The notes under the pieces: generated by a model
Databases searched by the model: none
What the model saw: the letters and a program-made list of their open reading frames with translations, nothing else
What the model was told of the DNA's origin: nothing
In this document: positions 38,986 through 52,312 of the stretch, in pieces
Layout of the letters: the number at the start of each line of letters is the position of its first letter
How positions within the stretch are numbered: the stretch's first letter is position 1
Position numbers and translations under genes: made by a program
Assembly: GCA_001644455.1 (NCBI GenBank)
Contig: LSTF01000091.1
Span: 1 to 53,897, forward strand
From: Betaproteobacteria bacterium SCGC AG-212-J23
GTDB taxonomy: Bacteria > Pseudomonadota > Gammaproteobacteria > Burkholderiales > SG8-39
DNA: 53,897 nt
Direction: 5' to 3'

Positions 38986-39745
38986 AAGCCAATTTTACGT
39001 AAATCGGCGCGAAACATTCAGCCTGCGTGATCTCGACCAGCAGTTCTCGTGCGAGCTCGAGAAGCGCAAGCAAAGTCACGACCAGGACGGCGACGCCGCG
39101 CGAGGGGTTGAACAGCTCGGTGAACTCGGCCATCCGCTTCTCGCGCAGCAGGCGCAGGATGCCGCTCATGTGCTCGCGCACGGAAAGCTCCTCGCGCGAG
39201 ATGTGGTGGTGCTTCGACATGCGCGCGCGGTGCAGCAGGCTGCGCCAGGCCTCGGCAAGGTCCTGGGCATGGACGTCGGGCAGCTGTTGCTCGATGGTCT
39301 TTTCGATCCAGACCGAGACGGCCGCCACGTCACGGCCAACCTGCGGCAGCTCGTCGAGCTTCTGCGCCGCCTGCTTCATGCGCTCGTACTCGAGCAAGCG
39401 CCGCACCAGCTCGGCGCGCGGGTCCTCCTCGAGCGCCTCGGCGGCCGGCGGGCGCGGCAGCAGCAGGCGCGACTTGATCGCCATCAGCATCGCCGCCATG
39501 ACCAGGTACTCGGCGGCGAGCTCCAGGTTCTTGACGCGCATGATCTCGACGTACTCGAGGTACTGGCGCGTAAGCGGCGCCATTGGAATATCGAGGATGT
39601 CGAGGTTTTCCTTGCGAATCAGGTAGAGCAGCAGGTCGAGCGGCCCTTCGAAGGCCTCGAGCACCACTTCCAGGGCATCGGGCGGGATGTAGAGGTCATG
39701 CGGCAGCTCGACCACCAGCTCGCCGTAGACCTTGGCGGCCATCAT
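38969..39745 (-). CDS. scpA: Kleisin ScpA
   Basis: ScpA bridges the SMC heads. This 258-residue protein has the N-terminal kleisin motif [24 protein letters not shown], a middle segment rich in charged residues, and a winged-helix C-terminus ([18 protein letters not shown]). Translation from ATG 39745 overlaps the trpS stop (ATGA); a second ATG follows immediately. Roughly 20 residues precede the conserved part, which is usual in betaproteobacteria. Confidence 0.94.
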
Positions 39746-40944
39746 GGGTAGTTCAATCCCATCGATTCGCGCACGTCGCGCATCGTCTCGGCAGCAAGGC
39801 GCTTCGCCTTCTCGCAGCCGTCGGCAACGATGTTGCGCACCAGCGTCGGATCGTCGACGTAGGCCTGCGCGCGGGCACGCATCGGTGCGAGCTCGGCGTT
39901 GACCGCGTCGATCACCGGCTGCTTGCACTCGAGACAACCGATGCCGGCGGTGGTGCAGCCGGTCCAGACCCACTTCTTCCGCGCCTCGTCGGAGTAGACC
40001 TTGTGCAGCTCCCACACCGGGCATTTCTCCGGGTTGCCCTTGTCGGTGCGCTTCACGCGCGCCGGGTCAGTGGGCATGGTCTTGATCTTCTTCGCCACCG
40101 ACTCGGGCTCCTCGCGCAGCGCGATGGTGTTGCCATAGGACTTCGACATCTTCTGTCCGTCGAGCCCGGGCATCTTCGACGCCTCGGTGAGCAGCGCTTC
40201 CGGCTCGACCAGGATCTTCTTGCCGGTGCCTTCCAGCCAGCCGTAGAGCCTTTCACGGTCGATGCGCGTCATGTTCTGCTGCTCGTCGAGGAGAGCCTGG
40301 CCGCGCGCGAGCGCGCCGGCGTCGCCCGCCTCGAGGAACTTGGTACGCAGCTCGTTCAGGAGGCGCGCCTTCTTCGCCCCCATCTTCTTCACCGCCGCCT
40401 TGGCCTTCTCCTCGAAGCCCGGCTCGCGGCCATAGAGATGGTTGAAGCGGCGCGCGACCTCGCGCGTGAATTCGACGTGCGGCACCTGGTCCTCGCCTAC
40501 CGGCACGAACTTCGCGCGATAGATCAGGATGTCCGCCGACTGGAGCAGCGGGTAGCCGAGGAAGCCGTACGTCGAAAGGTCCTTGTCGGCGAGCTTCTCC
40601 TGCTGGTCCTTATAGGTTGGCACGCGCTCCAGCCAGCCGAGCGGCGTCATCATGGAGAGCAGCAGGTGCAGCTCGGCGTGCTCCGGCACCTGCGACTGGA
40701 CGAAGAGCGTCGCCTGCGCCGGGTCGACGCCCGCGGCGAGCCAGTCGATCACCATGTCGATGCCGCTCTGCTGCACGTCGCCGGGCTTTTCGTAGTCCGT
40801 GGTGAGCGCGTGCCAGTCGGCCACGAAAAACAGGCACGGATACTCGCTCTGCAGGCGCACCCAGTTCTTCAGCACCCCGTGGTAATGGCCGAGGTGCAGG
40901 CTGCCGGTAGGCCGCATGCCGGAGAGGACTCGGGTTTCGTACAA
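39742..40944 (-). CDS. trpS: Tryptophanyl-tRNA synthetase with four-Cys motif
   Basis: This class I synthetase of 400 residues is longer than the roughly 330-residue E. coli form. The HIGH-type motif is GSLHLGHYHG and the KMSKS motif is KMSKSYGNT. In the anticodon-binding region four cysteines are spaced C-x21-C-x6-C-x2-C (C308, C330, C337, C340), resembling the [4Fe-4S] motif described for Thermotoga TrpRS. The start is a TTG giving MYETRVLSGMRPTG, which fits the family; the frame extends upstream into the protease gene without support. It overlaps scpA by ATGA. Confidence 0.93.
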   Translation of the reverse strand: MYETRVLSGMRPTGSLHLGHYHGVLKNWVRLQSEYPCLFFVADWHALTTDYEKPGDVQQSGIDMVIDWLAAGVDPAQATLFVQSQVPEHAELHLLLSMMTPLGWLERVPTYKDQQEKLADKDLSTYGFLGYPLLQSADILIYRAKFVPVGEDQVPHVEFTREVARRFNHLYGREPGFEEKAKAAVKKMGAKKARLLNELRTKFLEAGDAGALARGQALLDEQQNMTRIDRERLYGWLEGTGKKILVEPEALLTEASKMPGLDGQKMSKSYGNTIALREEPESVAKKIKTMPTDPARVKRTDKGNPEKCPVWELHKVYSDEARKKWVWTGCTTAGIGCLECKQPVIDAVNAELAPMRARAQAYVDDPTLVRNIVADGCEKAKRLAAETMRDVRESMGLNYP

Positions 40945-40952
40945 GTCGGTCT

Positions 40953-41681
40953 CTAGAGGAGCACGACAGCGCGCAGCAGCGCTTCGGACTCGAAGAGGAG
41001 CGGGCCGAGCACGCCGCCCAGGACGTTCGTGAACATCAGGACGAGCAGGATCGGCAGGCCCCACGGCTCGATCTTGGCAAAGGTCCACGCCGCACGGCTG
41101 GGCAGCAGGCTGGCGAGAATTCGCCCGCCGTCGAGCGGCGGGATCGGGATCAGGTTGAGCAGCATGAAGATGAGGTTGACCAGCACGCCCGCCGCGGCCA
41201 TGCCGATGGCGAACTCCGCCGGCCCGCTGCCGTGGCGAAGCACGGCATCGATCAGGCCGCCGGTGCCGGCTTCCTTCGCCACCTCGGTCCAGGCGTCGGC
41301 GCGGTCGCTGAGCGTCACGCCGAGCCGCAGCACTGCCGTCCAGGCGAGCGCCATAATCAGGTTCGCGGCCGGGCCCGCCGCAGCCACCCACGCCATGTGC
41401 TGGCGCGGCTTCCTCAGCGCCGAATAATTCACCGGCACCGGCTTCGCCCAGCCGAACAGGAACTTGCCGCCCGAGACGAGGAGGATGGCGAGCGGCACGA
41501 GCAGCGTGCCGACGAGGTCGACGTGCCGCAGCGGGTTCAGGCTGATGCGCCCCTGCGCGTGCGCCGTCATGTCGCCGAAATGGCGCGCCACATAGCCATG
41601 CGCCGCCTCGTGCAGCGTGATGGCGAACAGCACCGGGAGGGCATAGATGGCGAACGTCTGCAGTGCGTGGTTGACGTCCAT
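40953..41681 (-). CDS. M50-family membrane metalloprotease (YwhC/SpoIVFB-like)
   Basis: This short site-2-type protease of 242 residues has the zinc motif FAITLHEAAHGYVARHFGD in its first helix and the third ligand in LIPIPPLDGGRILASLLP. There are about five to six hydrophobic helices and no PDZ domain. Homologues occur widely next to trpS and scpA in bacteria, but their substrate is generally unknown. The start ATG is preceded by a short gap after yciO. The family is certain, the role is not. Confidence 0.88.
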   Translation of the reverse strand: MDVNHALQTFAIYALPVLFAITLHEAAHGYVARHFGDMTAHAQGRISLNPLRHVDLVGTLLVPLAILLVSGGKFLFGWAKPVPVNYSALRKPRQHMAWVAAAGPAANLIMALAWTAVLRLGVTLSDRADAWTEVAKEAGTGGLIDAVLRHGSGPAEFAIGMAAAGVLVNLIFMLLNLIPIPPLDGGRILASLLPSRAAWTFAKIEPWGLPILLVLMFTNVLGGVLGPLLFESEALLRAVVLL

Positions 41682-42327: not shown

Positions 42328-43184
42328 CAGCCGAGGAACGCTTCGATGGCGTGTGCCAGCGCTTCGGGCTGGTCGTGATGCAGCATGTGCCCGGCGTCGG
42401 CGATCTCGATGAACCGCAGGTCGCGGAATGCCGATCGGCGCTCGGCGTGCTGACCGGCGTCGAGACCGAGGCGCTTCAGGGTGTCGGATTCCTTGCCGTC
42501 CACCCACAGCACCGGCGCGGTGACCTTGCGCCAGCAGGCCTGCGCTTCCTCCAGGCGATAGAGGGTCGCGTTGACGATCTTGTGCGCCGGATCAGCGCGG
42601 AGCATCACCTTGCCATCCTTCTCATGGCCCCAGTGCCGTGCAAGGAAATCAGACCGTTCCTTCGACAGTCTCTTGTTGCCGCTGCGCAGGCGTGTGGCCA
42701 GCTCGTCGAAGCTCGAATAGGGACGGAGTTGCGGCGGCGCGCGCAGCTCGCCAACCCAGCGCGCATAGCGCTCCGGGGCCTCGTCGGATCGCGTCGCCCG
42801 CAGGCCGAACCCCTCGAGGTTGACGAATTTCGCGACCCGCTCCGGCTGGACACCGGCGTACATCGCCGCGACGTTACCGCCCAGACTGTGACCGACGAGG
42901 TGGATGGGACTGCCGATCGAATCGACGAGAAAGTCCAGGTCGGCGAGATAGTCCGCGAACCAATAGCAGTCTCCCTTTCCCCATTCCGTAAGGCCGTAAC
43001 CCCGCCAGTCGGGCGCATACACGTCCCAGTCGCGCCGCAGGGCATCGACCATGAACTGGAACGATGCCGACACGTCCATCCAGCCATGAAGCACGACCAT
43101 TTTCGGCGCGCCGGGATTCGCCCAGCGACGCACGTGGTAGCGCAACTCCCGGATCTGCAGGAACTGCGATTCGCTCGGCTTCAT
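42327..43184 (-). CDS. Alpha/beta hydrolase
   Basis: A 285-residue alpha/beta-hydrolase fold protein. The oxyanion region is VVLHGWMDVSASF, the nucleophile elbow is LVGHSLGGNVAAMYAG (Ser), a likely acid is in LWVDGKESD and the catalytic His is in IADAGHMLHHDQPE. It has no signal peptide. Related proteins include esterases and epoxide- or haloalkane-type hydrolases; the substrate cannot be told. It overlaps dadA by ATGA (43181-43184), so it is probably in a dadA-hydrolase-yciO operon. Confidence 0.85.
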   Translation of the reverse strand: MKPSESQFLQIRELRYHVRRWANPGAPKMVVLHGWMDVSASFQFMVDALRRDWDVYAPDWRGYGLTEWGKGDCYWFADYLADLDFLVDSIGSPIHLVGHSLGGNVAAMYAGVQPERVAKFVNLEGFGLRATRSDEAPERYARWVGELRAPPQLRPYSSFDELATRLRSGNKRLSKERSDFLARHWGHEKDGKVMLRADPAHKIVNATLYRLEEAQACWRKVTAPVLWVDGKESDTLKRLGLDAGQHAERRSAFRDLRFIEIADAGHMLHHDQPEALAHAIEAFLG

Positions 43185-44392
43185 GAGAAGTGGAAATCCA
43201 CTTCCGGCCTGCGCCCGGAGACGAGGTCGGCCAGCGCCTTCCCCGACCCGCAGGCGAGCGTCCAGCCGAGCGTGCCGTGCCCGGTGTCGAGAAAGAGGTT
43301 CGAGAAGCGCGTGCGGCCGATCACCGGCACGTTGCTCGGCGTCGCCGGCCGCAACCCCGCCCAGGTCTTGATCTCTCCCGGCACGATGTCGGGAAAGAGT
43401 GTGCGAACGCGGCGCAGGATCGCATCGCAGCGCGCCGCATTGATGCTGGTGTCATAGCCCGCCAGCTCGGCGGTGCCCGCGGCGCGCAGGCGATTACCGA
43501 GGCGCGAAATCACGATCTTCGCGGCCTCATCCGTAAGGCTCACGGTCGGTCCGTCCTTCGTTTCCAGCGTGATGGAGTAGCCCTTCAGGGGGTAGACCGG
43601 GATGCGGATGCCAAGCGGTCTCAATAGAAGAGGACTGTAGCTGCCGAGCGCCACCACGTACGCATCACCCTGCAGCCCGTCAACACCCTCGACACGATCG
43701 CCAGCGACCTCGATCCGAGTCGCGACATGTCCATAGCGGAACTGCACGCCTCGCTGCTCGCAGCGACGGGCGAGTTCCAACGTGAACTTGTGCGCATCGC
43801 CCGACTCATCGTGCGGATCGTAGAGGCCGCCGAGCACGGGCTCGCGGGAATTCTTCAGCGCTGGCTCGAGCGCCACGCACTCGGCCGCGGTCTTGAACTC
43901 CCGCCGCGCGCCGAACTCGCGCATCGCCGCCGCTTGCTGCTTGAGGGTTTCGAGGTCCGCCTTGCGAGTGGCGAATTGCAGGATGCCCCGGGTCAGCTCG
44001 TCGTAGCGGATGCCGGTGCTCCGGCGCAGCGCCTGCAGGCATTCCCGGCTGTACGCGGCAAGCCCGGCGAGCGCCCGGCTATTGCGCTCGAATCGGCCAG
44101 GGACGCACTCGCGCAGGAAACCGAGCCCCCAGCGCCACTGCGCCCAGTCGAGGCGCGGCCGGAAAAGAAGTGGCGCGTCCTCGTGGCCGAGCCACTTCAG
44201 GATCTTCGGCAACGCGGCGGGTTTCGCCCAGGGCTCGGCATGGCCGGCCGAGATCTGGCCGCCGTTCGCGAACGAGGTCTCGAGCGCGGGTTGCGCACGA
44301 CGATCGACGACCGTCACTTCGTGGCCCGCCTCGGCGAGATACCAGGCGCTGGTGACGCCGATCACGCCCGCGCCCAAAACAATGACCTTCAC
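43181..44392 (-). CDS. dadA: D-amino acid dehydrogenase-like FAD enzyme
   Basis: This 403-residue DAO-family flavoprotein begins KVIVLGAGVIGVTSAWYLAEAGHEVTVVDRR, the dinucleotide-binding motif, and ends with TGHGTLGWTLACGSGKALADLVSGR, typical of DadA. It oxidatively deaminates D-amino acids (classically D-alanine) and passes electrons to quinones. The start is a GTG at 44392, without a clear ribosome-binding site. No alanine racemase gene is adjacent, so the substrate could differ. Confidence 0.88.
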   Translation of the reverse strand: MKVIVLGAGVIGVTSAWYLAEAGHEVTVVDRRAQPALETSFANGGQISAGHAEPWAKPAALPKILKWLGHEDAPLLFRPRLDWAQWRWGLGFLRECVPGRFERNSRALAGLAAYSRECLQALRRSTGIRYDELTRGILQFATRKADLETLKQQAAAMREFGARREFKTAAECVALEPALKNSREPVLGGLYDPHDESGDAHKFTLELARRCEQRGVQFRYGHVATRIEVAGDRVEGVDGLQGDAYVVALGSYSPLLLRPLGIRIPVYPLKGYSITLETKDGPTVSLTDEAAKIVISRLGNRLRAAGTAELAGYDTSINAARCDAILRRVRTLFPDIVPGEIKTWAGLRPATPSNVPVIGRTRFSNLFLDTGHGTLGWTLACGSGKALADLVSGRRPEVDFHFS

Positions 44393-44954: not shown

Positions 44955-45716
44955 TCAGCGCGGCGCCATCCGGATCGCGCCGTCGAGGCGGATCGTCTCG
45001 GCATTCAGCATCTCGATCTCGACGATCGATTTCACCATTTGCGCGAATTCCGCCGGCTTCCCGAGGCGCGAGGGGAACGGCACCTGCTTGCCGAGCGACT
45101 CCTGCGCATCCTTGGGCAGCGCCGCGAGCAGCGGCGTCTCGAAGATGCCCGGCGCTATGGTGCAGACGCGGATGCCGTTGCGCGACAGGTCGCGCGCGAT
45201 GGGCAGTGTCATGCCGACGATCCCGCCTTTCGAGGCGGAATACGCAGCCTGCCCGATCTGCCCGTCGTAGGCCGCGACCGACGCGGTGTTGACGATCACG
45301 CCCCGCTCGCCGGCCGCGTTCGGGCTCGCCTTCGCCATCGCATCCGCGGCGAGGCGGATCATGTTGAAAGTCCCGACAACGTTGACGGTGATGACCTTGA
45401 CGAAGCGTCCCAGGTCGTGGGGCGCGTCCTTGCCGATCGTGCGCTCGGCGAGCGCGATGCCGGCGCAGTTGACCAGCACGTGCAGGCCGCCGAACTCCTT
45501 CATCGCCAGCGCCACCGCAGCCTTGCCGTCGGCCTCGCTCGCGACGTCGGTCTTCGCAAAACGACCGCCAAGCTCCTTGGCGAGCTTCTCGCCGGCTTCG
45601 ACCTGCAGGTCGGCGATCACGACCTTGCCGCCGTTCTCCGCCGCCATGCGCGCGGTCGCCGCTCCCAGACCGGAAGCGCCGCCCGTAACGAGGAATATGC
45701 TATTTCTGATCTGCAT
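44955..45716 (-). CDS. SDR-family 3-hydroxyacyl-CoA dehydrogenase (type 2-like)
   Basis: This short-chain dehydrogenase of 253 residues has the NAD site [19 protein letters not shown], the motif LVNCAGIA, catalytic Ser in [10 protein letters not shown], and YSASK. The conserved [20 protein letters not shown] and the C-terminal [10 protein letters not shown] match 3-hydroxyacyl-CoA / 2-methyl-3-hydroxybutyryl-CoA dehydrogenases (HSD17B10-like). It probably works in fatty acid or isoleucine catabolism. GGAG precedes the ATG. It is divergent from the big flavoprotein gene and shares a palindrome-containing promoter region with it. Confidence 0.87.
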
Positions 45717-45754: not shown

Positions 45755-48700
45755 ATGCAGCCCGGTTTTGGCTTTCGTTTCAACGACCTCTATGAGCGCG
45801 CGGGGATGCTTCGCATCGACGCGGCGTTTCTCGCCTTTCTGGGCGAGGCGGATGGCGCGTTGCGCGACAAGCTGGTCGCGGCCAGGAAAACGCCGCCGCC
45901 GGGCCGCGAGGAGTCCGACCTGCTGGTTGCACTCTCGCCGCACGTCGAGGACTTCCTGGCGAAGCTCTTCGGCATCGAGGACGAGGCTCGCGCGCTCGCC
46001 GCGCGCCACAACGAGCTCGCCCCGCTCTACTCCGTCAAGCGCCTGTTCGTGCAGCGCCGCGCCTTGCACAAGGTCAAGCCGGAAGACGCGAAGCCCGACA
46101 GCTTCGCCTTCACCACCGAGCTCGACTTCGCGCAGCGCGTCAGCGGCTGGCTGAAGGATGAAGCCGCGAACGCGGCGAGCCTGGAAGCGGCGGCGCGCTA
46201 TGCCGCCTGGGCGACGACGACCCCGGAGGGGAAAAAGAAGCATCGTTCGGGCGTGCTCTTCAAGACGCCGACCAAGCTCGACTTCATGAAGCTCGTGCCG
46301 CTGCACACCGAGACCGCTCACGGCTTCGCCGAGCACACTTCCACCCACCTTCGCCAACGGGAAGGGTTCCAGCTCACCGACCAGGGCACCGATCTCGCCG
46401 GCGCGCTCGATGAAGTCAACTACTGCATCTGGTGCCATGAGCAGGGCAAGGACTCCTGCTCCAAGGGGCTGAAGGAGAAAGCGCCCGCCCAGGGGTTCCG
46501 CAAGACGGTGTTCGGCGTGCCGCTGGCGGGGTGCCCGCTGGAAGAAAAGATTTCCGAATTCCAGATGGTGAAGGCGCGCGGCGAGACGCTGGCCGCGCTG
46601 GGCATCATCGCCATCGACAACCCGATGGCCGCGGCCACCGGGCACCGCATCTGCAACGACTGCATGAAGTCGTGCATCTATCAGAAGCAGCAGCCGGTCG
46701 ACATTCCCCAGGCCGAGACCCGCACGCTCAAGGACGTGCTCGAGCTGCCCTGGGGCTTCGAGATCTACTCGTTGCTCACGCGCTGGAATCCCCTCAACCT
46801 GCGCCGCCCCTATCCCAAAGAGCCTTCCGGAAAAAGAGTCCTGGTCGTCGGCCTTGGCCCGGCAGGGTTCACCGTCGCCCACCATCTGATGAACGACGGC
46901 CACACCGTGGTCGGCATCGACGGCCTGAAGATCGAGCCGCTGGACGCGGCGATCTCCGGGGTGGATCCGCTCGGCAATCGCAGCCCATTCCGTCCGGTGA
47001 AAGCCATCGAGGAATTGAAAGAGCCCCTCGACAGGCGCGCCATGGCCGGCTTCGGCGGCGTCGCCGAGTACGGCATCACCGTGCGCTGGGACAAGAACTT
47101 CCTCAAGGTGATCCGCCTGCTCGTCGAGCGGCGCTCGCAGTTCGCGATGTTCGGCGGCGTGCGCTTCGGCGGCACGCTGACCATCGACGAGGCTTTCGCG
47201 GACGGCTTCGACCATATCGCGCTGTGCGCCGGCGCCGGCCGCCCGACCGTGCTCGAGATCCCGAACGGCTTCGCCCGCGGCGTGCGCGCCGCCTCCGATT
47301 TCCTGATGGCACTGCAGCTCACCGGCGCGGCGAAGCGCGAGTCGATCGCCAACCTGCAGGTCCGCCTGCCGGTGGTGGTCATCGGCGGCGGCCTGACCGC
47401 GATCGATACCGCCACCGAGTCGCTCGCCTACTACGCCGTCCAGGTGGAGAAGTTCCTCGCCCGCTACGAAACGCTCGGCGAGGACCCGTCGTGGAACCCG
47501 GAAGAGCGTTCGATCGCCCAGGAATTCCTGCGTCACGCGAAGGCGCTGCGGGCGGCGAAGCCCGAGGAGCGGCTGAACCTGCTCAAGTCCTGGGGCGGCG
47601 TGACCATCGCCTACCGGCGTCGCCTCATCGACAGCCCCTCCTACACGCTCAACCACGAAGAAGTCGAGAAGGCGCTTGAAGAAGGCATCACGTTCGCCGA
47701 AGGCCTCACACCGGTTCGTATCGATGTCGACGAACATGGTCACGCCAGCGCAGTGGTATTCCAGAACGACATCCGCCTGCCAGCGAAGTCGGTGCTGATC
47801 GCCGCGGGCACGCAACCCAACACGGTGCTTGCCCGCGAGGAAGGCGTGACGCTCGCGCTCGACGGCAAGTACTTCCAGGCCTGCGACGAGACGGGTGCGC
47901 CGGTGAAGCCCGAGAAGCACACCGCAAAGCCGGCGAAGCCGCAGGTGCTGTTGCACCGCTACGCCGACGGCCGCTTCATGAGCTTCTTCGGCGACCTGCA
48001 TCCCTCCTACTTCGGCAACGTCGTCAAGGCGATGGGCAGCGCCAAGCAAGGCTATCCGGTCGTGAGCGGCGTTCTTTCCTCGCTCAAGGCGTCCTCATCG
48101 GAGAGTGACGCGACCTTCCTCGCCCGGCTGAACCGCGACCTGCGCGCGGTCGTGCACGAGGTGAAGCGCCTCACGCCGCGCATCGTCGAAGTCGTCCTGC
48201 GCGCGCCGGTTGCCGCGCGGCGCTTCCATCCCGGCCAGTTCTATCGCATGCAGAATTTCGAAGCCCTGGCGATGAAGGTCGAGGGAACGACGCTCGCCAT
48301 GGAAGGCCTCGCCCTGACCGGCGCATGGGTCGACCGCGAGAAGGGGCTGATCTCGGTGATCGCGCTCGAGATGGGCGGCTCGGCCGACCTCCTCGCCTAT
48401 CTCAGGCCGGGGGAGCCGGTGGTGCTGATGGGACCGACCGGCACGCCGACCGAGATCCCGCACGGCGAGACCGTGGCGCTCGTCGGCGGCGGTCTCGGCA
48501 ACGCGGTCCTTTTCTCCATCGGCCGCGCGCTCCGTACCGCGGGCTCGAAGGTCATCTACTTCGCCGGCTACAAGGAACTCGCCGACCGCTATCGCGTCGA
48601 GGACATCGAGGCGTCCTCGGACGTGGTGATCTGGTGCTGCGACCAGGCGCCGGGCTTCAAGCCGCGCCGCCCTCAGGACCGGTCATTCGTCGGCAACATC

Positions 48701-49126
48701 GTCGAAGCGATGCACGCCTATGCTTCAGGAAAGCTGGGCAAGCAGGAAATCGAGTTCGCCAAGACCGACCGAATCGTCGCCATCGGCTCCGACCGCATGA
48801 TGGCCGCCGTTGCATTGGCAAGACACGGGGTTTTAATGCCTTTCTTGAAACCCAACCATGCGGCCATTGGCTCGATCAACAGCCCGATGCAATGCATGAT
48901 GAAAGAGATCTGCGCGCAGTGCCTGCAGCCGCACGTCGATCCGCAGACCGGCAAGACGTCCTACGTCTTCTCCTGCTTCAACCAGGACCAGCCCCTCGAC
49001 CAGGTCGATTTCCGCGCCCTCGCCCAGCGCCTCGCGCAGAACGGCGTGCAGGAAAAGCTCACCGCCCTGTGGATCGGCCGCTGTCTGAAGAAGCTGCCGC
49101 CTCCCATCGAACGAAAGGCCGCTTGA
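45755..49126 (+). CDS. Fused GltD-like / PyrK-like iron-sulfur flavoprotein
   Basis: A single 1123-residue chain. Residues 1 to about 200 are unrecognised and mostly helical. Next comes a GltD-type Fe-S region: C224, C227, C235 and C260 (in GCPLEEKISE), then C300, C303, C307 (CNDCMKSC). The FAD site VLVVGLGPAGFTVAHHL (near 362) and a second nucleotide site VVIGGGLTAIDTATESLA (near 541) follow. From about 790 a ferredoxin-reductase/PyrK-like domain starts (HPGQFYRMQ, then VALVGGGLGNAVLF near 908) and ends with CMMKEICAQC plus a distal Cys (C1047, C1053, C1056, C1074), a [2Fe-2S] pattern. This is the layout of NfnL plus NfnS in one polypeptide. Activity is unknown; electron bifurcation is only a hypothesis. 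Confidence 0.85.
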   Translation: MQPGFGFRFNDLYERAGMLRIDAAFLAFLGEADGALRDKLVAARKTPPPGREESDLLVALSPHVEDFLAKLFGIEDEARALAARHNELAPLYSVKRLFVQRRALHKVKPEDAKPDSFAFTTELDFAQRVSGWLKDEAANAASLEAAARYAAWATTTPEGKKKHRSGVLFKTPTKLDFMKLVPLHTETAHGFAEHTSTHLRQREGFQLTDQGTDLAGALDEVNYCIWCHEQGKDSCSKGLKEKAPAQGFRKTVFGVPLAGCPLEEKISEFQMVKARGETLAALGIIAIDNPMAAATGHRICNDCMKSCIYQKQQPVDIPQAETRTLKDVLELPWGFEIYSLLTRWNPLNLRRPYPKEPSGKRVLVVGLGPAGFTVAHHLMNDGHTVVGIDGLKIEPLDAAISGVDPLGNRSPFRPVKAIEELKEPLDRRAMAGFGGVAEYGITVRWDKNFLKVIRLLVERRSQFAMFGGVRFGGTLTIDEAFADGFDHIALCAGAGRPTVLEIPNGFARGVRAASDFLMALQLTGAAKRESIANLQVRLPVVVIGGGLTAIDTATESLAYYAVQVEKFLARYETLGEDPSWNPEERSIAQEFLRHAKALRAAKPEERLNLLKSWGGVTIAYRRRLIDSPSYTLNHEEVEKALEEGITFAEGLTPVRIDVDEHGHASAVVFQNDIRLPAKSVLIAAGTQPNTVLAREEGVTLALDGKYFQACDETGAPVKPEKHTAKPAKPQVLLHRYADGRFMSFFGDLHPSYFGNVVKAMGSAKQGYPVVSGVLSSLKASSSESDATFLARLNRDLRAVVHEVKRLTPRIVEVVLRAPVAARRFHPGQFYRMQNFEALAMKVEGTTLAMEGLALTGAWVDREKGLISVIALEMGGSADLLAYLRPGEPVVLMGPTGTPTEIPHGETVALVGGGLGNAVLFSIGRALRTAGSKVIYFAGYKELADRYRVEDIEASSDVVIWCCDQAPGFKPRRPQDRSFVGNIVEAMHAYASGKLGKQEIEFAKTDRIVAIGSDRMMAAVALARHGVLMPFLKPNHAAIGSINSPMQCMMKEICAQCLQPHVDPQTGKTSYVFSCFNQDQPLDQVDFRALAQRLAQNGVQEKLTALWIGRCLKKLPPPIERKAA

Positions 49127-49356: not shown

Positions 49357-50522
49357 ATCGCACGCTTCTGTTATTTATAGCTTTTATCCCCTTAAATTCC
49401 TTCGGCCAAGCGCTCAAGATCGGCGAGCTGAATAGCTACAAGGTCTTCCCCGCCTTCCTGGAGCCCTACAAGAAGGGCATGGAGCTCGCGGTCGAGGAGC
49501 TCAACTCGGCCAGCGCCAAGTTTGTCGAGCTGGTGGTACGTGACGATGGCGGCACCCCGGGCGACGCCGTCCGGGTCGCCGAGGAGCTGATCGCACGCGA
49601 GCGGGTGAACCTGCTGATGGGCACCTTCGCCTCCAACGTCGGCTTGGCCGTGTCCAACCTCGCGGCCCAGCGCAAGGTGCTGTTCCTCGCTTCCGAACCG
49701 CTCACCGACAAGATCGTCTGGGAGAACGGCAACCGCTACACGTTTCGCCTGCGCCCCTCGACCTACATGCAGGTAGCGATGCTCGTCCCGGAAGCGGCGA
49801 AGCTGAAGAAGAAGCGCTGGGCGATCGTCTACCCGAACTACGAGTACGGCCAATCCGCGGCAGCGTCCTTCAAGAAGCTCCTCGCTCAAGCGCAGCCCGG
49901 CGTCGAATTCGTCGGCGAGCAGGCGCCAGCGCTCGGCAAGATCGACGCCGGAGCGGTGGTGCAGGCGCTCGCCGATTCCAAGCCCGATGCGATCTTCAGC
50001 GCCCTGTTCGCGGCGGACCTGCAGAAGTTCGTCCGCGAAGGCAACACGCGCGGCCTGTTCCGCAGCACGGCCGTGTTCAACCTTCTCGCCGGCGAGCCCG
50101 AGTATCTCGACACGCTGAAGGACGAGACCCCGGACGGCTGGTGGGTGACCGGCTATCCCTGGACCGAGATCAACACGCCCGAGCACCGCCGGTTCCGCGA
50201 CGCCTACCAGAAGCGCTGGAACGACTACCCGCGGCAGGGGTCGGTGGTCGGATACACGGCGATCTACGCCGCCGCCGAAGCGGCGCGGAAAGCGAAAAGC
50301 CGCGACACGGAAAAACTCGTCGAGGCGCTGAAGGGGCTGCAGATGGGCACGCCCTTTGGCGCCATCCAGTGGCGCGCCGTCGATCACCAGTCGACCATGG
50401 GCGCCTACGTCGGCCAGCTGGCAAAGAAGAACGGCGCGGGCGTGATGGTCAACTGGCGCTACGCCGACGGCGCGAAGTTCCAACCCGCCGACGAGGAAAT
50501 CCGTAAGCTCCGCAAGGAGTGA
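49353..50522 (+). CDS. Branched-chain amino acid-type ABC substrate-binding protein
   Basis: The 389-residue periplasmic protein starts with a signal peptide (MNRTLLLFIAFIPLNSFGQA, cleavage near residue 20). A LivK/leucine-binding fold follows: KIGELNSY, KKGMELAVEELN, VVRDDGGTPGDAVRVAEELI, NLLMGTFASNVGLAVSNLA and YPNYEYGQSAAASF. Ligands of this family include leucine, amides, urea and aromatic acids, so branched-chain amino acids are only one option. ATGA and GTGA overlaps tie it to the RHH gene and to the permease. Confidence 0.9.
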   Translation: MNRTLLLFIAFIPLNSFGQALKIGELNSYKVFPAFLEPYKKGMELAVEELNSASAKFVELVVRDDGGTPGDAVRVAEELIARERVNLLMGTFASNVGLAVSNLAAQRKVLFLASEPLTDKIVWENGNRYTFRLRPSTYMQVAMLVPEAAKLKKKRWAIVYPNYEYGQSAAASFKKLLAQAQPGVEFVGEQAPALGKIDAGAVVQALADSKPDAIFSALFAADLQKFVREGNTRGLFRSTAVFNLLAGEPEYLDTLKDETPDGWWVTGYPWTEINTPEHRRFRDAYQKRWNDYPRQGSVVGYTAIYAAAEAARKAKSRDTEKLVEALKGLQMGTPFGAIQWRAVDHQSTMGAYVGQLAKKNGAGVMVNWRYADGAKFQPADEEIRKLRKE

Positions 50523-52312
50523 CTAGCTCAGCCGTTCTGCTGCAGCTCCTGAACGGCCTCGCCGGCGCGAGCTCGCTCTTCCTCGTCGCCGCCGGGCTGT
50601 CGCTGATCTTCGGCGTCAGCCGCATCGTCAACTTCGCGCACGGCTCGCTCTACATGCTCGGCATGTACGTCGCCGTGTGGCTCTCCGGCCGCGTCGGCTT
50701 CTGGGCAGCGGTGCCGCTCGCCGCGCTCGCCGTCGCGGTGCTCGGCGCCTGCATCGAAGCGTCGCTCCTGCGGCGCATCTATCGCGCGCCCGAGCTGCTG
50801 CAACTCCTCGCCACGTTCGCGCTCGTTCTGCTCGCACGAGACTTTGCGCTCTGGGCTTGGGGCCCGGAAGACCTCCTCGGCCCGCGCGCGCCCGGCCTCG
50901 CGGGCGCTGTCGAGATCGCGGGCCAGGCGTTTCCGCAGTACGACCTGCTCCTCATCCTCGCGGGGCCGCTGGTCTTCGCCGTCCTGCACTTCGTGCTGAC
51001 GCGGACGCGCTGGGGCGTGCTGGTCCGCGCGGCGACCCAGGACCGGGAGATGGCGAGCGCGCTCGGTGTCAACCAGCGCTGGCTGTTCACCGGCGCGTTT
51101 ACCCTCGGCGCGGCGCTCGCCGGCCTGGGCGGGGCGCTCGCCATCCCCCGCGAGCCGGCGAGCCTCGGCATCGACCTGGCGCTCATTTCCGACGCTTTCG
51201 TGATCGTCGTCGTGGGCGGGCTGGGGTCGATTCCCGGCGCTTTCGTCGCCGCGCTGCTCATCGGCGTGATCAAGGCGTTCTGCATCGGCCTGGGATATTC
51301 GAAGCTGACTCTGGTCGCCGAGTTCGTGGTCATGGCGATCGTGCTGATCCTGCGCCCCTGGGGACTGCTCGGCCGCCCGCAGGCCGAAGTGCGCGGCACG
51401 TGGACCGAAGTGCCCATCGGGCGACTCTCGAAACGCGGCGCCATCGCCATCGCTCTTCTCGCGCTGCTGCTCGTGGTCCTCCCCTCGCTTCCTGATCAAT
51501 ACGTGCTCGTCCTCGCGACCGACATGCTGGTCTTCGCGCTGTTCGCGGCCAGCCTGCATTTGCTCATGGGCCCCGGTGGCATGGCCTCGTTCGGCCACGC
51601 TGCGTACTTCGGGCTCGGTGCTTACGCTTGCGCATTGGCCGCTCTGACGCTGCATTGGTCAACGGCGGCTGCGCTGTTCACGGGCTGGGGTGCCGGCGCG
51701 CTGGGCGCGGCGATTTTCGGCTGGTTCTGCGTGCGTCTCTCGGGCGTCTACCTCGCGATGCTGACGCTCGCGTTCGCCCAGATCGTCTGGTCCACGGTCT
51801 TCCAATGGGACGCCGTGACCGGTGGGTCCAACGGCCTGGTCGGGATCTGGCCGGAAGAGTGGCTTGCGTCGCGCACCGCGTACTACTACGTCGTCCTGAT
51901 GGTGTGCAGCTACGCGATCTTCCTCCTCTGGCGGATGGCGCACACGCCATTCGGCTATGCGCTTCGCGCCTCGCGCGACTCGCCGTTGCGCGCGAGTGCG
52001 CTCGGCATCAACGTGCGCGCGAAGCAATGGGAGTCCTTCATCATCGCCGGCTCGGCAGCCGGGGTCGCGGGCGCGCTCTTCGCGTTCTCCAAGGGATCGA
52101 TCTCCCCGGAAACGTTATCCGTGCAACGTTCGGTGGATGGGTTGGTGATGGTCCTGCTCGGCGGTGCGCACACCCTGACTGGCCCAGTCTGGGGTGCCGC
52201 CGCGTTCACCTGGCTGCAGGACACGATGGCTCGCAGCGTCGAGTACTGGCGCGCCGGGATCGGCGCCGTCATTCTCGTCCTGGTGTTCGCGCGATGGCGA
52301 TTCTCAGCATAA
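50519..52312 (+). CDS. Fused LivH-LivM ABC permease
   Basis: One 597-residue chain contains two permeases that are usually separate genes. Residues 1 to about 290 are LivH-like (GLSLIFGVSRIVNFAHGSLYMLG, then VVVGGLGSIPGAFVAALLIG), and about 310 to 597 are LivM-like (GPGGMASFGHAAYFGLGAYA, RASRDSPLRASALGINV, VMVLLGGAHTLTGPVWGAA). The linker is short and charged (PQAEVRGTWTEVPIGRLSKRG). The start is a GTG overlapping the binding-protein stop (GTGA). It would form the heterodimeric pore as one polypeptide. Confidence 0.92.
   Translation: MTSSAVLLQLLNGLAGASSLFLVAAGLSLIFGVSRIVNFAHGSLYMLGMYVAVWLSGRVGFWAAVPLAALAVAVLGACIEASLLRRIYRAPELLQLLATFALVLLARDFALWAWGPEDLLGPRAPGLAGAVEIAGQAFPQYDLLLILAGPLVFAVLHFVLTRTRWGVLVRAATQDREMASALGVNQRWLFTGAFTLGAALAGLGGALAIPREPASLGIDLALISDAFVIVVVGGLGSIPGAFVAALLIGVIKAFCIGLGYSKLTLVAEFVVMAIVLILRPWGLLGRPQAEVRGTWTEVPIGRLSKRGAIAIALLALLLVVLPSLPDQYVLVLATDMLVFALFAASLHLLMGPGGMASFGHAAYFGLGAYACALAALTLHWSTAAALFTGWGAGALGAAIFGWFCVRLSGVYLAMLTLAFAQIVWSTVFQWDAVTGGSNGLVGIWPEEWLASRTAYYYVVLMVCSYAIFLLWRMAHTPFGYALRASRDSPLRASALGINVRAKQWESFIIAGSAAGVAGALFAFSKGSISPETLSVQRSVDGLVMVLLGGAHTLTGPVWGAAAFTWLQDTMARSVEYWRAGIGAVILVLVFARWRFSA

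Follow-up and report, generated by a model that had tools for sequence, protein, structure and literature searches.

What does an enzyme do that unites, in one chain, modules resembling both halves of the Nfn transhydrogenase? This question is raised by a gene at 45755-49126 (+ strand) of contig LSTF01000091.1 from Betaproteobacteria bacterium SCGC AG-212-J23; the whole stretch analysed, 53,897 nucleotides long, is called the window here, and it is contig C91 of a 2.06 Mb source genome (123 contigs, 60% complete). An earlier note, made from the sequence alone, had described a single uninterrupted frame with a helical domain, a GltD-type module and a PyrK-type module, resembling a fused Nfn, and this interpretation is partly supported by our analysis. 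Sequence comparison and fold prediction indicate that the gene encodes a genuine, conserved Nfn-like enzyme in one chain; its family is common in aerobic bacteria and uncharacterised, and a database model for it exists already. With moderate confidence, we read it as a single-chain oxidoreductase between nicotinamide adenine dinucleotide (phosphate), NAD(P)H, and ferredoxin, built like NfnSL, with FdxA as the likely partner and reductive sulfur assimilation as a frequent use.

Architecture and cofactor sites of the chain

The frame is open over 1123 residues without interruption, as the note had it, and begins at the sole ATG/GTG/TTG within it. The two recognised modules follow one another in the order that had been proposed, by sequence as well as by predicted fold:

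45755-49126, + strand: whole gene, 1123-aa single-chain Nfn-like flavoprotein, PRK06567-like (open reading frame (ORF), NCBIfam, fold prediction)
45755-46252, + strand: N-terminal helical domain, residues 1-166 (part of NF005128; no PDB fold match found)
46256-48082, + strand: NfnL/GltD-like module, residues 168-776 (match to 5jfc_L)
46424-46717, + strand: two predicted [4Fe-4S] sites, C224/C227/C235/C307 and C260/C300/C303/E321 (alignment and residue order against NfnB)
46850-46867, + strand: GLGPAG, putative dinucleotide-binding motif for flavin adenine dinucleotide (FAD), residues 366-371 (motif conservation)
47384-47407, + strand: GGGLTAID, putative NADP(H) Rossmann motif, residues 544-551 (motif conservation)
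47420-47590, + strand: helical stretch, residues ~556-612, between the Rossmann and YRR motifs (not in P. furiosus NfnL)
47612-47620, + strand: YRR motif, residues 620-622 (2'-phosphate site of NADP(H) in NfnB, as described in PMC7596348)
48146-49090, + strand: NfnS/PyrK-like module, residues ~798-1112 (fold and sequence matches)
48893-48976, + strand: predicted four-Cys [2Fe-2S] site, C1047-x5-C1053-x2-C1056-x17-C1074 (alignment)

The NCBIfam model NF005128/PRK06567 covers residues 1-943 (E = 1.5e-229), which on sequence grounds is far beyond chance; at 764.7 bits against a cut-off of 1072, the window protein is a relative of that family rather than a formal member. When the chain was cut in three, all parts matched NF005128 in order, the N-terminal domain included: residues 1-166 matched this model only, the middle part also GltD-type models and the end also PyrK/NfnS-type models of NCBIfam. 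Pfam places Pyr_redox_2 at 361-706 and a Fer4_20 match under its cut-off, and finds no glutaminase or GltB domain in the chain.

The full chain was modelled with AlphaFold2 from a 25-row alignment (the window and 24 of the 29 other homologues of the first set), giving a mean predicted local distance difference test (pLDDT) of 85.3 and a predicted template modelling score (pTM) of 0.88. In this structure prediction, which the earlier note had proposed, the two modules match NfnL and NfnS. Residues 168-776 fit P. furiosus NfnL (5jfc_L) with Z 23.8 and a root mean square deviation (rmsd) of 2.9 over 434 aligned residues at 26% identity. Near-equal Z scores come from Xfn (23.3) and from two GltD chains (23.1 and 22.9, the former being 2vdc_G with rmsd 3.0 over 413 residues), with further NfnL and GltD structures just below, and the GltD chains share only 19-21% identity with the module. 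As NfnL and GltD are tied in Z, the fold alone gives no choice between them. Sequence comparison with solved structures brings out Xfn/NfnL as nearest to the middle module and NfnS as nearest to the C-terminal one. The predicted C-terminal part reaches a template modelling score of 0.87 (normalised by target) with NfnS 5jca_S, and its sequence is nearer to NfnS (E 5.4e-13) than to PyrK (E 0.0033), whose fold it also matches (1ep1_B, Z 14.3, rmsd 2.7, 251 aligned). The model is consistent with an NfnL-type fold bearing predicted sites for two [4Fe-4S] clusters, FAD and NADP, and with an NfnS-type fold bearing predicted sites for FAD and a [2Fe-2S] cluster.

Conservation of the ligands was followed in two alignments, one of 30 rows (the window and 29 homologues; a first search had given 55 matches in 53 genomes, and 30 of these loci were retrieved and all aligned) and one of 121 rows (the window and 120 further loci). 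The eleven cysteines named in the earlier note (224, 227, 235, 260, 300, 303, 307, 1047, 1053, 1056 and 1074) stand exactly where it had placed them and are family-wide: they are kept in 30/30 rows of the first alignment, and in the second Cys 1047-1074 are kept in 121/121 rows and Cys 224-307 in 120/121, the sole exception being L155, with gaps and X there.

In T. maritima NfnB, the distal cluster is bound by C39, C42, C47 and C100 and the proximal one by C51, C90, C96 and E117 (PMC7596348). A profile alignment with 5jca_L and 5vj7_A pairs C260 with the GCP cysteine, C300/C303/C307 with the second Cys group, and E321, conserved in 121/121 rows, with the LER glutamate. C224/C227/C235 lie beyond the aligned stretch and would by their order be the counterparts of C39/C42/C47. 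We assign the distal [4Fe-4S] site to C224, C227, C235 and C307, and the proximal site to C260, C300, C303 and E321. On this alignment all eight NfnL [4Fe-4S] ligands, the unusual Glu included, have counterparts in the chain.

The spacings tell a different story. The family has x2, x7 (119/121) and x22-44, then Cx2Cx3Cx13E, and the NfnB motifs RCx2Cx4Cx3CPV and GRVCPQExQCx3Cx13Gx2ER (PMC6405883) are unmatched, although every ligand residue is there. Also unmatched is the NfnA [2Fe-2S] motif DGTGMCGxCRx10CV, which includes an Asp ligand (PMC6405883): the family shows C-x5-C-x2-C-x15-18-C, and the first ligand is Cys in 121/121 rows. Judged by sequence, the family departs from canonical Nfn at both points, the Asp ligand and the motif spacing. 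The note had made its Nfn-like idea depend on the cysteines falling on the NfnL and NfnS sites; by sequence alignment they do so at both [4Fe-4S] clusters (partly by residue order), and at the [2Fe-2S] cluster only in part, with Cys for Asp.

Among the nucleotide-binding motifs, Y620 is kept in 119/121 rows, R621 in 120/121 and R or K at 622 in 118/121, the window having YRR. The ERxPxT flavin strand is partly retained (E850 in 104/121; T855 in 96/121, with Ser in 16 more). Fold, ligand mapping and NADP motif together back the resemblance to a fused Nfn.

The N-terminal domain had been called unrecognised and about 200 residues long. An additional helical domain is indeed predicted with confidence when it is modelled alone (pLDDT 91.8, pTM 0.71), yet it ends at about residue 166, the NfnL fold starting at 168, and it is recognised by NF005128 positions 1-174. 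No usable fold relative was found in the PDB (best Foldseek E 4.6), which does not in itself make the fold new; the best VIA-align match was weak (Z 4.7, rmsd 3.7, 58 aligned). No Pfam family matched more than one of the 63 members of an N-terminal domain set, made of the window and 62 of 110 loci (left out were L104, L155, L080, L156, L157, L127 and another four whose pieces are very long). A search for the domain in other proteins, suggested by the earlier note, matched 28/151 class genomes, with first-look candidates scored only in part in many of the 151; 27 matches lie on the long open frame (1056-1354 aa) where the fused gene sits, and the 28th (G003) is marginal and partial (E 3.8e-4). 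One branch of the family (L012-L029) has chains of ~1,225-1,250 aa with additional stretches within this domain.

The family and its genomic neighbourhoods

Homologues are present in 53/274 genomes of the window's class (E <= 1e-30) and in 17/398 genomes of the phylum (E <= 1e-60), with chains of mostly 1125-1250 aa. A scan of named records confirmed at least 569 stretches; among the best 80 of these, record titles include Nitrosomonas, Nitrosovibrio, Azospirillum, Gallionella, Bryobacteraceae and Paludisphaera, placing the family also in other Proteobacteria, Acidobacteria and Planctomycetes. The closest among the matches listed (L039, L040) are 82-83% identical and come from metagenome-assembled genomes (MAGs) titled Betaproteobacteria bacterium. 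For five contigs (L045, L047, L061, L072, L094) the MAG species names look doubtful (Bordetella parapertussis, Rhizobium sp., Asaia bogorensis). Phages gave a single weak partial match (24.7% identity).

The architecture itself is already known, covered by the PRK06567 model and published as fused GltD-first Nfn homologues, so that the earlier statement that known Nfn modules are two subunits was incomplete: fused homologues appear both in PMC6405883 and in the NCBIfam models. What is novel is the genomic context, namely the fdxA, siroheme reductase, (P)APS-reductase-like and pntAB neighbours ((P)APS, (phospho)adenosine phosphosulfate). No published link of the family to FdxA or to reductive sulfur assimilation was found in the open PMC literature.

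Flanks of 135 loci including the window (121 in a first clustering) were clustered and searched, with varying flank lengths. To be scored, a locus needed either a hit or flanks of 4.2 kb or more on each side; changes were counted on a FastTree tree, which gave warnings for long branches and for joining L156/L157. The ferredoxin gene fdxA lies in the searched flank of 15/135 loci, corresponding to 15 hits and 10 changes among 91 scored loci. Because fdxA amounts to ~1-2 genes per ~3 Mb and ~12 kb was viewed per locus, we estimate a chance expectation of about one hit or fewer in 91 loci; the ten changes clearly exceed it, despite the post hoc choice of this gene and a scored set that favours hits. 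All four neighbouring ferredoxins scanned (L065, L107, L150, L151) exceed the NF045490 FdxA cut-off.

Several arrangements recur. In three loci (L065, L081, L107) fdxA is immediately upstream on the same strand, with gaps of 43-139 bp, and likewise on the A. caldus plasmid pTcM1. In six others (L141, L146, L148, L151, L156, L157) the order is fdxA on the opposite strand, grxD and the fused gene; this order is kept across six genomes, four of which measure just 1.0-1.7 Mb. L065 and L081 carry another short-chain dehydrogenase/reductase (SDR) downstream of the fused gene (L065 8089-8841 at 1.6 kb; L081 13536-14321 at 26 bp); the two SDRs are 66% identical to each other and 32% to the SDR of the window.

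A siroheme reductase lies within 4.2 kb in 14/94 scored loci (6 changes): loci of Nitrosomonadaceae type, L061 (directly upstream), L107 (convergent) and L168. The three that were scanned score best with ferredoxin-type NirA models, all under the cut-off. The Nitrosomonadaceae-type loci also carry cysB, cysH, cysD and cysN, one example of each being confirmed over cut-off. Ten of these (L066-L069, L071, L073, L074, L078, L083, L085) have cysteine-biosynthesis genes upstream, only some of them in L085, and pntAA-pntAB-pntB downstream. Across the 135 loci, pntAA and pntB follow on the same strand in 14, with a gap to pntAA of 75 bp to 1.5 kb; a count of 16 for pntAA was set aside in favour of the 14 with pntB, as the contig of L055 stops inside pntAA and the gene of L156 is 32% identical and perhaps an alanine dehydrogenase.

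A longer row is found in L047, L052, L070 and L150: a GntR regulator, a flavoprotein resembling the PAPS reductase alpha subunit, a 77-aa [4Fe-4S] protein, a HEAT protein, fdxA, a sulfonate-type ATP-binding cassette transporter (SsuA-like binding protein, permease and ATPase) and the fused gene. L046 has the same row without an fdxA hit and L045 a part of it, rearranged. On pTcM1 the row runs from GntR to fdxA and directly into the fused gene, with an ATP-binding cassette transporter beside it on the other strand. The pTcM1 flavoprotein is over the cut-off of PRK08275, which NCBIfam names 'fumarate reductase/succinate dehydrogenase flavoprotein'; among solved structures, however, it comes nearest to the alpha subunit of a methanogen PAPS reductase (8a8o, E 1.2e-61). 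The chromosomal flavoproteins are 68-70% identical to the plasmid one. The row (L046, L047, L052, L070, L150, L214 and pTcM1) is possibly an alternative assimilatory (P)APS reductase system. Cargo of the F. caldus plasmid has been named as ferredoxin/APS reductase/GntR and sulfonate transporter modules in a paper whose main text does not contain the word oxidoreductase (PMC12375680). The genome of L150 (G026) has a second fused-gene copy, L137; one stands in the sulfonate-type row, the other elsewhere.

Proposed function and its alternatives

For cofactor occupancy, partner, direction and use we infer the following scheme, beside the architecture, conserved ligands, predicted folds and neighbourhoods observed above. 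NADPH would bind the GltD-like half at the YR[RK] motif and exchange hydride with the FAD of that half. Single electrons would then travel from the proximal to the distal [4Fe-4S] cluster and on to a ferredoxin, for which FdxA is the most likely candidate. In the PyrK-like half, a second FAD and the four-Cys [2Fe-2S] cluster may exchange electrons with another nicotinamide pool, presumably that of NAD(H). Aerobic hosts would probably use the enzyme in the direction of ferredoxin reduction, to supply (P)APS reductase, siroheme sulfite/nitrite reductase and further ferredoxin-dependent enzymes.

In aerobes that have neither pyruvate:ferredoxin oxidoreductase nor Rnf nor a plant-type reductase, it is often unclear how ferredoxin is charged. 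The present family, in 53/274 class genomes, is a concrete candidate for doing so in aerobic bacteria. Among gene-bearing genomes, a PF00970 reductase was not found in 7 of the 11 tested (G173, G243, G130, G027, G050, G602, G327), and among 20 tested POR_N is over cut-off in 5 (7 at E <= 0.001) and RnfC_N in 3 (6 at E <= 0.001). The small genome G173 (1.0 Mb, 99% complete) has no PF00970, POR_N or RnfC_N match, and its six PF07992 matches comprise the fused gene, two weak matches without name and proteins named as dihydrolipoyl dehydrogenase, thioredoxin reductase and UbiH-type hydroxylase; the fused gene is therefore the sole recognised ferredoxin-reducing candidate there.

Several observations weigh against the proposed ferredoxin oxidoreductase. 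Neither fdxA nor a sulfur gene adjoins the window's own gene, in a genome that is 60% complete, and this genome has PF00970 and POR_N proteins; for Rnf, neither PF04060 nor RnfC_N was matched in the same incomplete genome. It does hold two ORFs that exceed the FdxA cut-off, one on contig C1 and one on C87. Over the family, fdxA is missing from the 4.2 kb around the gene in 76/91 scored loci, and the scoring is biased towards hits, which count even with a short flank. Other reductases may do the same work: G602 encodes a thioredoxin-reductase-like protein that may reduce ferredoxin, and NorW-like reductases occur in G027 and G243. Nine of the 53 gene-bearing genomes lack a NIR_SIR domain, and CysJ (E <= 1e-100) is found in 13/53 gene-bearing genomes against 20/221 others (p 0.004; over cut-off, 9/53 against 15/221, p 0.03). 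No published activity for the family was found in the open PMC literature.

Could the enzyme be devoted to assimilatory sulfur reduction, feeding electrons to siroheme sulfite reductase or (P)APS reductase in the kind of role that CysJ or DsrL have? We regard this as possible, and tentatively so. The cys genes beside the Nitrosomonas-type loci, the siroheme reductases adjoining in L061 and L107, the ferredoxin-type NirA scores and the PAPS-reductase-like row (L046, L047, L052, L070, L150, pTcM1) all speak for such a role. The genome counts speak for a broader one. NIR_SIR is present in 44/53 gene-bearing and 159/221 other genomes (p 0.12), the nine genomes without it include all six with the fdxA-grxD-fused gene order, and CysJ co-occurs with the fused gene instead of excluding it. 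These counts tie the gene neither to siroheme reductases nor to standing in for CysJ: replacement of CysJ was rejected, as was a strict sulfite-reductase partnership for the nine genomes, so that sulfite reduction is not the sole use. A general ferredoxin supply, often used in sulfur assimilation, fits the co-occurrence data better.

It is more doubtful that the protein is, like NfnAB, a true bifurcating transhydrogenase, whose single chain would split the electrons of NADPH between NAD+ at the PyrK half and ferredoxin at the [4Fe-4S] clusters or run this reaction backwards. Both the NfnL and NfnS modules are there with their cofactor sites, and the proton-driven transhydrogenase genes downstream in 14/135 loci would suit such an enzyme. 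However, the Asp ligand linked in NfnA to a high [2Fe-2S] potential, +80 mV (PMC6405883), is Cys in this family, which weakens the bifurcation reading and suggests that the energetics may differ here, and the ERxPxT strand is kept just in part. Bifurcating Nfn is found almost only in anaerobes, as described in PMC6085437. The hosts point the other way, too. Named ones such as Nitrosomonas and Azospirillum are aerobes. We hold it unlikely that the protein is a one-chain, oxygen-tolerant bifurcating NADPH:NAD+/FdxA oxidoreductase that supplies aerobes with low-potential ferredoxin for reducing (P)APS and sulfite; if true, it would be a bifurcating Nfn-like enzyme, bearing a helical domain that found no fold match in the PDB, in organisms where such Nfn are thought nearly absent. 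The four-Cys cluster is a natural variant for probing the part of the Asp ligand in bifurcation.

The surroundings in the window had suggested to the earlier note a link to fatty or branched acid oxidation. Divergent genes upstream encode an SDR (44955-45716) and a D-amino acid dehydrogenase (43181-44392). Downstream lie transporter genes of the branched-chain amino acid/urea type, for a periplasmic binding protein, for two BPD_transp_2 permease stretches joined in one 597-aa ORF (50519-52312), and for an ATPase. The 597-aa ORF is apparently a fused UrtB-UrtC-like permease, seen also in L039, L040, L076 and L097. Farther off, the tryptophan--tRNA ligase ORF (39742-41391) matches NF008922 from residue 152 only, by an N-terminal extension or a start placed too far upstream. 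A lineage-specific catabolism of fatty or branched acids with the SDR and the amino-acid/urea-type transporter is very improbable as the role of the fused gene. The SDR is divergently adjacent in the window, L039 and L040, and the Urt-like binding protein and permease adjoin the gene in the window, L039, L076 and L097. But among the 135 loci a close SDR homologue (E <= 1e-25) is near the gene only in the window, L039, L040, L041 (1.15 kb off) and L081 (4.3 kb), close transporter homologues only in L039, L040, L076 and L097 (far off in L060), and other lineages have different neighbours. The fatty-acid link was rejected as lineage-local.

A role as glutamate synthase small subunit is hardly credible: the NF005128 name and the GltD fold (2vdc_G, tied with NfnL) favour it, but there is no glutaminase or GltB domain in Pfam, an NfnS-like module is fused where GltD stands alone, and no gltB is among the annotated neighbour genes. 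The model's name, 'putative bifunctional glutamate synthase subunit beta/2-polyprenylphenol hydroxylase', misleads: glutamine conversion was inferred from it in a genome paper on Neorickettsia (PMC5481527), where the protein concerned may belong either to this family or to PRK12779, which bears the same name.

Comparison with known systems

The proposed single-chain ferredoxin oxidoreductase shares with Nfn (NfnAB/NfnSL) both module folds, the eight predicted [4Fe-4S] ligands including Glu, the FAD and NADP motifs and, in the window, the YRR for NADP(H). It differs in being one chain in the order NfnL-NfnS, with an added N-terminal domain and a helical stretch before YRR, in a four-Cys [2Fe-2S] site where NfnS has Asp and three Cys, and in Cys spacings of x7 and x22-44 against x4 and x3. 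With NF005128/PRK06567 it shares the three-part architecture, unlike in score, which stays under the cut-off.

The fused Nfn homologues called 'Pattern C', described from Actinobacteria and Proteobacteria, are also one chain with GltD first and PyrK at the C-terminus; they are uncharacterised and ~200 aa longer than the Clostridium fusion (PMC6405883). That length suits PRK12779 (944 aa) better than the present longer family, and PRK06567 is only a possible member of Pattern C.

DsrL is likewise an Nfn-related, GltD-like Fe-S flavoprotein, a NAD(P)H:acceptor oxidoreductase serving a siroheme sulfite reductase; unlike our protein, it ends in a ferredoxin domain, and an NfnS module is not among the domains listed for it in PMC7596348.

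PyrK of dihydroorotate dehydrogenase B (1ep1_B) is alike in the fold of the C-terminal module. The [2Fe-2S] cluster of PyrK is bound by four Cys, as the one predicted here would be, whereas by sequence this module is closer to NfnS.

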